Below are positions 1-996 of a stretch of DNA of 46,318 bases, piece by piece. The stretch is taken from contig QHVM01000042.1 of the NCBI GenBank assembly GCA_003223555.1, positions 7,154 through 53,471 of the forward strand, in the 5' to 3' direction. This DNA comes from Acidobacteriota bacterium. GTDB taxonomy: Bacteria > Acidobacteriota > Vicinamibacteria > Fen-336. Position numbers and translations under genes: made by a program. The notes beneath the pieces were generated by a model. It was given only the letters and a program-made list of their open reading frames with translations. It did no database searches and was not told the origin of the DNA. Each line of letters starts with the position of its first letter. The stretch's first letter is position 1.

Positions 1-856
1 CGATCGTCGCAAGATCCTCGAAGAAGTCTCCGCGGAAAGCGTTCGGGTCGCAGTTGCTGTACGACCGGTGCTGGATGGTGCCGCTCCACGTCATCTTGAG
101 CGAGTTGAGGATCGAGTTGACGTGGCCCTCCGGGTGGAACGTGTTGAGCGCGTTCGGGACGTCGAAGCCGTCGAAGACCAGCACGTTCTTGACCTGCAGG
201 GAGGCCGTCTCCGCCTTCGGGTCGAACTTCACGCTGCCGACGGGAATGGGCGCGCTCCACATCACGCCGCTGGGGCTGACCCCGGGGTCCCACGAATGGT
301 TCAGCGTTGAGCCCGACGGGCTCAGGCTGTCGAGTCATATGAATGCGAACGCCCCCTTGTGGACCCGGCCGTCGGTGCCGACGAACTTCCCCGCCATGAA
401 TCGCATGTCGGTGTGGAACCGGTAGGGAGTGCTGACCATCGTGGTGGTGTCGGTGCCGGTCCCGTTCAGCTCGAGATCGGCCTGGCCGATGACGCCGTCG
501 AAGTCGAAGATCGTCGAGGGGTCACGGCCGTTGGGTTGTGTGGTGCCCTCGGGGTCGGTGGTCGCAGTCGAGCCGTCGGCCGGGCCGGGGAAGAAGAAGT
601 GGAAAGCGCCGAAAGCGGCCGGGACCTTGTTGATGTGCGGAATCGGGTCGGCCGCGGGGCACACCTGACCCTTCTCGCCTTGCTCGCCGTTTTCGCCCTG
701 GTCGTCGTCGTCGCTGCGGACCGGAGTCCAGAGGCCGGAGCCGAGCATGACACCGGCCGCCCCGGCCGAGGCCCCGAAGAACTGTCGTCGCGAGACGCTC
801 GGCAGCGGGCCGAGGGGTCCCGCGCGCCGAAATCGGCTGAAGACTGGAAGCTTCAT
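1..856 (-). CDS. Tat-exported protein of unknown function, in-frame UGA, 3' end beyond window
   Basis: The start ATG at 856-854 follows a strong GAGGAGG ribosome site; an upstream in-frame ATG at 910 lacks one. The product begins with a twin-arginine signal (SRRQFFGASAGAAG), followed by an Asp/Glu/Gly-rich linker and a domain carrying FDFDGVIGQADLELNGTGTD and FHTDMRFM. After residue 173 (...KGAFAFI) comes TGA at 337-335, but the same frame stays open to the window edge for at least 111 further codons. Those codons read as ordinary protein (LDSLSPSGSTLNHSWDPG, LVFDGFDVPNALNTFHPEGH) with two Trp and one Cys (SNCDPNAF). So the gene is either one selenoprotein-type reading frame or a nonsense-interrupted gene. 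I do not recognise the family. The upstream neighbour is GH31 on the same strand, with no sign of an operon. Confidence 0.7.
302..337 (-). promoter_or_regulatory. SECIS-like hairpin directly after in-frame TGA
   Basis: On the minus strand TGA (337-335) is followed by a hairpin at 329-302. It has an outer 4-bp stem CAGC/GCTG, an internal loop CT/AAC, a perfect 6-bp stem GAGCCC/GGGCTC and an apical loop GTC. The apical loop starts 17 nt after the TGA, begins with G then U, and an unpaired U sits at the base of the upper stem. These are the features described for bacterial SECIS elements (apical loop roughly 16-37 nt from UGA, exposed G in the loop, bulged U as in E. coli fdhF). The geometry is seen; the function is inferred. 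In GC-rich DNA such a hairpin can arise by chance. Confidence 0.4.
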
Positions 857-996
857 CGTATCCTCCTCGTTGGCGAAGAGCGCTGGAGTGATGGGTTTTG
901 CGGGCTTCACGAGCTATACGCTTCGGCCGGCCGGGCTGTCAACAGGAATCTCGGGCCTGACTGGCCGGCCGGATAAACGGCTAACCGGGGAGCAGC

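Follow-up and report, generated by a model that had tools for sequence, protein, structure and literature searches.

Can a UGA codon in the middle of an exported acidobacterial protein be read as an amino acid, and if so, what would that amino acid do there? The question arises from a gene at the left end of the window, the 46,318-nucleotide stretch of an Acidobacteriota bacterium contig analysed here. On the minus strand, a coding sequence at positions 2 to 856 (start codon ATG 856-854) is open except for a single codon, TGA 337-335 (residue 174), and reading of the sequence bears out the original prediction that the same protein-coding frame lies on both sides of it. The window's left end cuts the gene, so that roughly its last 40 codons are missing; in the assembly (G000, contig 90) it extends across an 11-N scaffold gap to G000:C90:7039, where it ends in a motif also found in its relatives, giving a protein of about 300 amino acids. 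A Shine-Dalgarno sequence (AGGAGGA, 861-867, minus strand) can be read off 5' of the ATG, and AAGGAG-type sites precede the start codons of most relatives. The N-terminus carries a Tat signal region (716-856, minus strand), with the twin arginine at 785-790 (SRRQFF) and a hydrophobic stretch after it; the arginine pair is invariant in all 28 members that have an N-terminus, and Tat models give weak matches to the window protein, below cut-off. Export through the Tat pathway is likely on these features.

The first protein search, across 60 genomes, returned two homologues besides the query gene (69% and 27% identical), both with an internal TGA at the position matching that of the window gene. 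Profile searches then matched 6 of 193 genomes in the window's own class, 6 of 396 drawn from the phylum and 31 of 299 in another class, a few of the latter being matches to the Tat signal only. Weak matches over about residues 10-79 were set aside as Tat signals of unrelated proteins rather than family members, and the frames that were read include some for proteins of the 2Fe-2S type. Full or nearly full homologues were aligned from 30 genomes, all Acidobacteriota, at 22-69% identity to the window protein. At the site where the original prediction had asked for either Cys or a further UGA (KGAFAFI-x-LDSLSP), the UGA occupies one column in 30/30 members, and neither Cys nor Trp nor any other residue takes its place; it is likewise invariant in a 28-member alignment, and two further fragments (L062, L063) also carry it. 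About 1,400 genomes, nearly all from Acidobacteriota and hardly covering other phyla, gave no Cys homologue, and it is within this range that the family appears to be entirely Sec-encoding. Plasmids (tblastn with four family members) and a scan of viral contigs yielded no relative. Two loci depart from the usual gene structure: in G052 (L036:5875-5930) the frame starts inside or beside a tRNA-Ser-like gene and lacks a Tat signal, which looks like a truncated copy or a join made during assembly, and in G363 (L112:1464-1626) a 54-residue open frame corresponds to the C-terminal part of the family only, with no convincing match upstream, a probable decayed copy.

Twelve pairs of members were taken and dN/dS 3' of the UGA was computable in ten: nine gave 0.06-0.45, and the tenth, a pair almost identical in that part, gave 0.80. 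Purifying selection thus acts on both sides of the UGA, which excludes a pseudogene. That the TGA arose in a normal gene by a nonsense mutation (from TGG, as the original prediction had considered, or from an Arg, Gly or Cys codon) or by a read error might seem plausible given that the assembly is a draft and that a scaffold gap interrupts this gene, but it is ruled out by a UGA held in a single column by 30 independent assemblies and by the purifying selection 3' of it.

The UGA is followed by a hairpin (302-329, minus strand) composed of a lower stem (329-326/305-302), an upper stem (324-318/314-308) and a GUC loop (317-315). The original prediction was right about the loop, with its G first and 17 nt from the UGA, but it described a 6-bp upper stem above an unpaired U; the upper stem is in fact 7 bp (UGAGCCC/GGGCUCA), with this U in a pair, and is separated by a C/AC internal loop from a lower stem of 4 bp. 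The published model of bacterial SECIS elements (bSECIS) allows a loop of 3-9 nt with G in position 1 or 2, an upper stem of 4-16 bp, a distance of 16-37 nt from the UGA and an MFE of -7.5 or lower (PMC13188914). The window hairpin, predicted to resemble such an element, lies within all these bounds (3-nt loop, 7 bp, 17 nt), folding at -16.9 kcal/mol with a z-score of -2.9. The same type of hairpin (perfect stem, -7.5 or better) follows the UGA in 24 of the 30 genes and occurs at 299 of 6413 control codon positions in those genes (4.7%); the corresponding binomial p of 5e-27 overstates the evidence because the 30 hairpins, coming from related genes, do not count as independent. The stem sequences vary between subfamilies while pairing is kept (GAGCCC/GGGCUC, AGGGACC/GGUCCCU, CCGAUCC/GGAUCGG). 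In a gap-free set of eight sequences, 3 of 7 pairs changed on both sides, and the covariation score was reached by none of 500 shuffles, other measures on that set being not unusual. No simple, strong hairpin of the model type was found in L040, L042, L043 and L050, and the stem in L033 is only 4 bp.

Insertion of selenocysteine also needs a dedicated machinery, and the search for selA, selB, selC and selD that had been proposed gave three of the four. The genome encodes tRNA-Sec (selC, 72.8 bits, confirmed by ARAGORN), SelB (336 bits) and SelD (341 bits, G000:C126:2747-3667); the selD gene has one in-frame TGA of its own and is itself, by its sequence, a selenoprotein gene. SelA had no real match in this 98%-complete draft; since it scores 490-540 bits in 9 of 14 relatives, one of them from the same genus, its absence is likely to be an assembly gap. 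Among the genomes that carry the family, 32 of 33 have SelB over cut-off, a figure which has no matched background rate and so does not serve to test for enrichment; the remaining one is a draft, 84% complete and split into about 810 contigs. As a side observation, the tRNA-Sec gene (L073:1-1159, G000:C45) adjoins a reading frame resembling an integrase, which might mean that a mobile element targeted the tRNA gene.

These data bear on two other ways of reading the codon. Decoding as Trp, through a code change or a general suppressor, would suit a residue set among hydrophobics (FAFI-x-LD), but no member has TGG, or Trp at all, in the conserved column, of the 11 long reading frames that were checked in the window 8 end in TGA, and both SECIS-like hairpins and the Sec machinery are present; we reject it as extremely improbable. 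Slightly less remote, and still very improbable, is a true stop, with the second half made as a separate protein or reached by programmed readthrough at a low level, a different amino acid being inserted and the hairpin acting as signal. Stem-loops can indeed stimulate readthrough; however, the fit of the hairpin to the bSECIS model in 24 of 30 genes and the presence of SelB in 32 of 33 carriers speak against this, and an unsystematic look noticed no conserved start site 3' of the UGA. With the UGA invariant, the hairpin recurrent, the downstream sequence under purifying selection and selB, selC and selD in the genome, the window gene very probably encodes a selenoprotein, as originally predicted: SelB and tRNA-Sec would decode the internal UGA as selenocysteine, directed by the hairpin directly downstream. 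What counts against this reading is that the genomes covered hold no Cys homologue to supply the customary proof from Cys/Sec pairs, that selA did not turn up in the own assembly and that a few members have no simple, strong hairpin.

What kind of protein is it? The original prediction recognised no family, and this has held: Pfam, NCBIfam 20.0 and the PDB matched no member apart from Tat signals and chance-level matches, PDB profile searches returning only matches of the signal-peptide type. None of the 119 prokaryotic selenoprotein families and subfamilies catalogued in 2026 (PMC13188914, Table 1) fits, and the families of Haft and Tolstoy 2025 were covered by the NCBIfam scan since they bear NCBIfam accessions in that catalogue. 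No report of such a protein came up in the literature covered. Six residues are invariant (Gly134, Asp150, Gly156, Sec174, His187 and Trp200, window numbering). The immediate surroundings of the selenocysteine (FAFI-U-LD) contain no adjacent Cys, and judged by this context and by the Pfam, NCBIfam and PDB searches, the family has neither a UxxC/CxxU motif nor a thioredoxin-type domain. The best-conserved cysteine column is occupied in at most 18 of 28 members and four members are entirely devoid of cysteine; in these, therefore, selenocysteine would act without an intramolecular Cys partner. Two AlphaFold2 predictions with five sequences reached mean pLDDT values of 31 and 44, and a fold search with these models gave no match below E 1e-3; because the models are too poor and the search gave no match, we claim no fold, and the protein is predicted to be beta-rich with low confidence only.

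The surroundings of the gene offer a lead to its function. In the subfamily to which the window protein belongs (LDS), the adjacent gene on the same strand encodes a vanadium haloperoxidase-type protein in four loci (L089, L090, L091, L125); in another four (L034, L081, L088, L124) its product is a DHOR di-haem peroxidase. The haloperoxidase calls of L090 and L091 match DUF6851 and VCPO_2nd, and those of L089, L125 and the own genome are based on BLAST similarity (the own copy also having a sub-threshold PAP2 match); the DHOR call in L124 comes from a 50-residue match near a contig piece. In the own genome, the haloperoxidase-type gene lies about 2.3 kb past the end of the selenoprotein gene (L094, G000:C90:3490-4692); it has a DHOR-like C-terminal tail and has lost the last segment of the haloperoxidase, and its counterpart in L125 (5182-6327) has a DHOR-like N-terminal stretch. 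Such chimeras suggest that haloperoxidase and DHOR genes recombined or replaced each other in one gene slot. The link to peroxidases is a lead drawn from about 8 loci of one subfamily with no background rate, the other subfamilies having mostly unrelated neighbours. Directly downstream of the selenoprotein gene, the own genome also has a ferritin-like gene (G000:C90:6315-6863), and none resembling it turned up next to the other members examined.

Taken with the Tat signal, the lone selenol and the invariant Asp, His and Trp, the peroxidase neighbours lead us to propose, tentatively, an extracytoplasmic peroxide or hypohalite reductase. The selenoprotein, exported by the Tat pathway, would be rich in beta structure and have one selenol at its active site. 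Sec174, together with Asp150, His187 and Trp200, would act outside the cytoplasm on an oxidised small molecule (peroxide or hypohalous acid), reducing or transferring it. Since no cysteine partner is conserved, recycling would fall to an external reductant, and in the window-type subfamily the protein would act alongside a haloperoxidase or di-haem peroxidase that is itself exported. The main alternative role is that of a selenoprotein whose Sec is structural, or a haem or metal ligand, and reduces neither peroxide nor hypohalite. The lack of a resolving Cys (with four Cys-free members), an invariant His and Asp that could bind metal and the di-haem proteins among the neighbours would all suit a ligand, but neither a metal-binding motif nor a cofactor domain is recognised and most selenoproteins of known function are redox enzymes (PMC13188914); a structural or ligand role is less likely than not, though about as probable as the reductase. 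A wider proposal is that the family exists in the selenocysteine form alone and that a new beta-rich enzyme, exported and acting together with vanadium haloperoxidases or di-haem peroxidases, has Sec as its one chalcogen, be it as catalyst or as ligand; in our estimation this has appreciable promise but short of an even chance.

Whatever its function, the family, as judged by sequence, matches none in the catalogues and literature searched and is of an unusual type: (i), the residue is encoded by UGA throughout; (ii), the protein carries a Tat signal; and (iii), it has no Cys pair. Nearly all selenoproteins have Cys-containing homologues (PMC13188914), and discovery relies on these, so that a widespread all-UGA family of soil bacteria would escape. 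A Sec-only family being invisible to finders that look for Cys/Sec pairs, more such families may hide in soil bacteria. The present family suggests that Acidobacteriota make more use of selenium than has been counted. Selenocysteine may even be required here rather than an upgrade of cysteine, and the invariant Sec/Asp/His/Trp set is available for experiment.

How does the family compare with known systems? With other bacterial selenoproteins it shares the in-frame UGA, a bSECIS-type hairpin within 16-37 nt downstream and a genome with SelB, tRNA-Sec and SelD; it differs from those listed in having neither UxxC/CxxU nor a detected Cys homologue in the mostly Acidobacteriota genomes covered. 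The Sec-containing alpha subunit of formate dehydrogenase is likewise a selenoprotein with a Tat signal, and the N-terminus of the family profile weakly resembles that signal (E 1.4), but the likeness is confined to the signal peptide, the new family being about 300 amino acids long and devoid of a molybdopterin domain. Glutathione peroxidases, whose active site is Sec-Gln-Trp-Asn, differ from the new family, which has no thioredoxin-fold or glutathione peroxidase match, no recognised shared motif and a predicted beta-rich structure. They nevertheless offer a functional analogy, and only that: a single Sec, catalytic in glutathione peroxidase, a conserved Trp and, possibly, a chemistry directed at peroxides.
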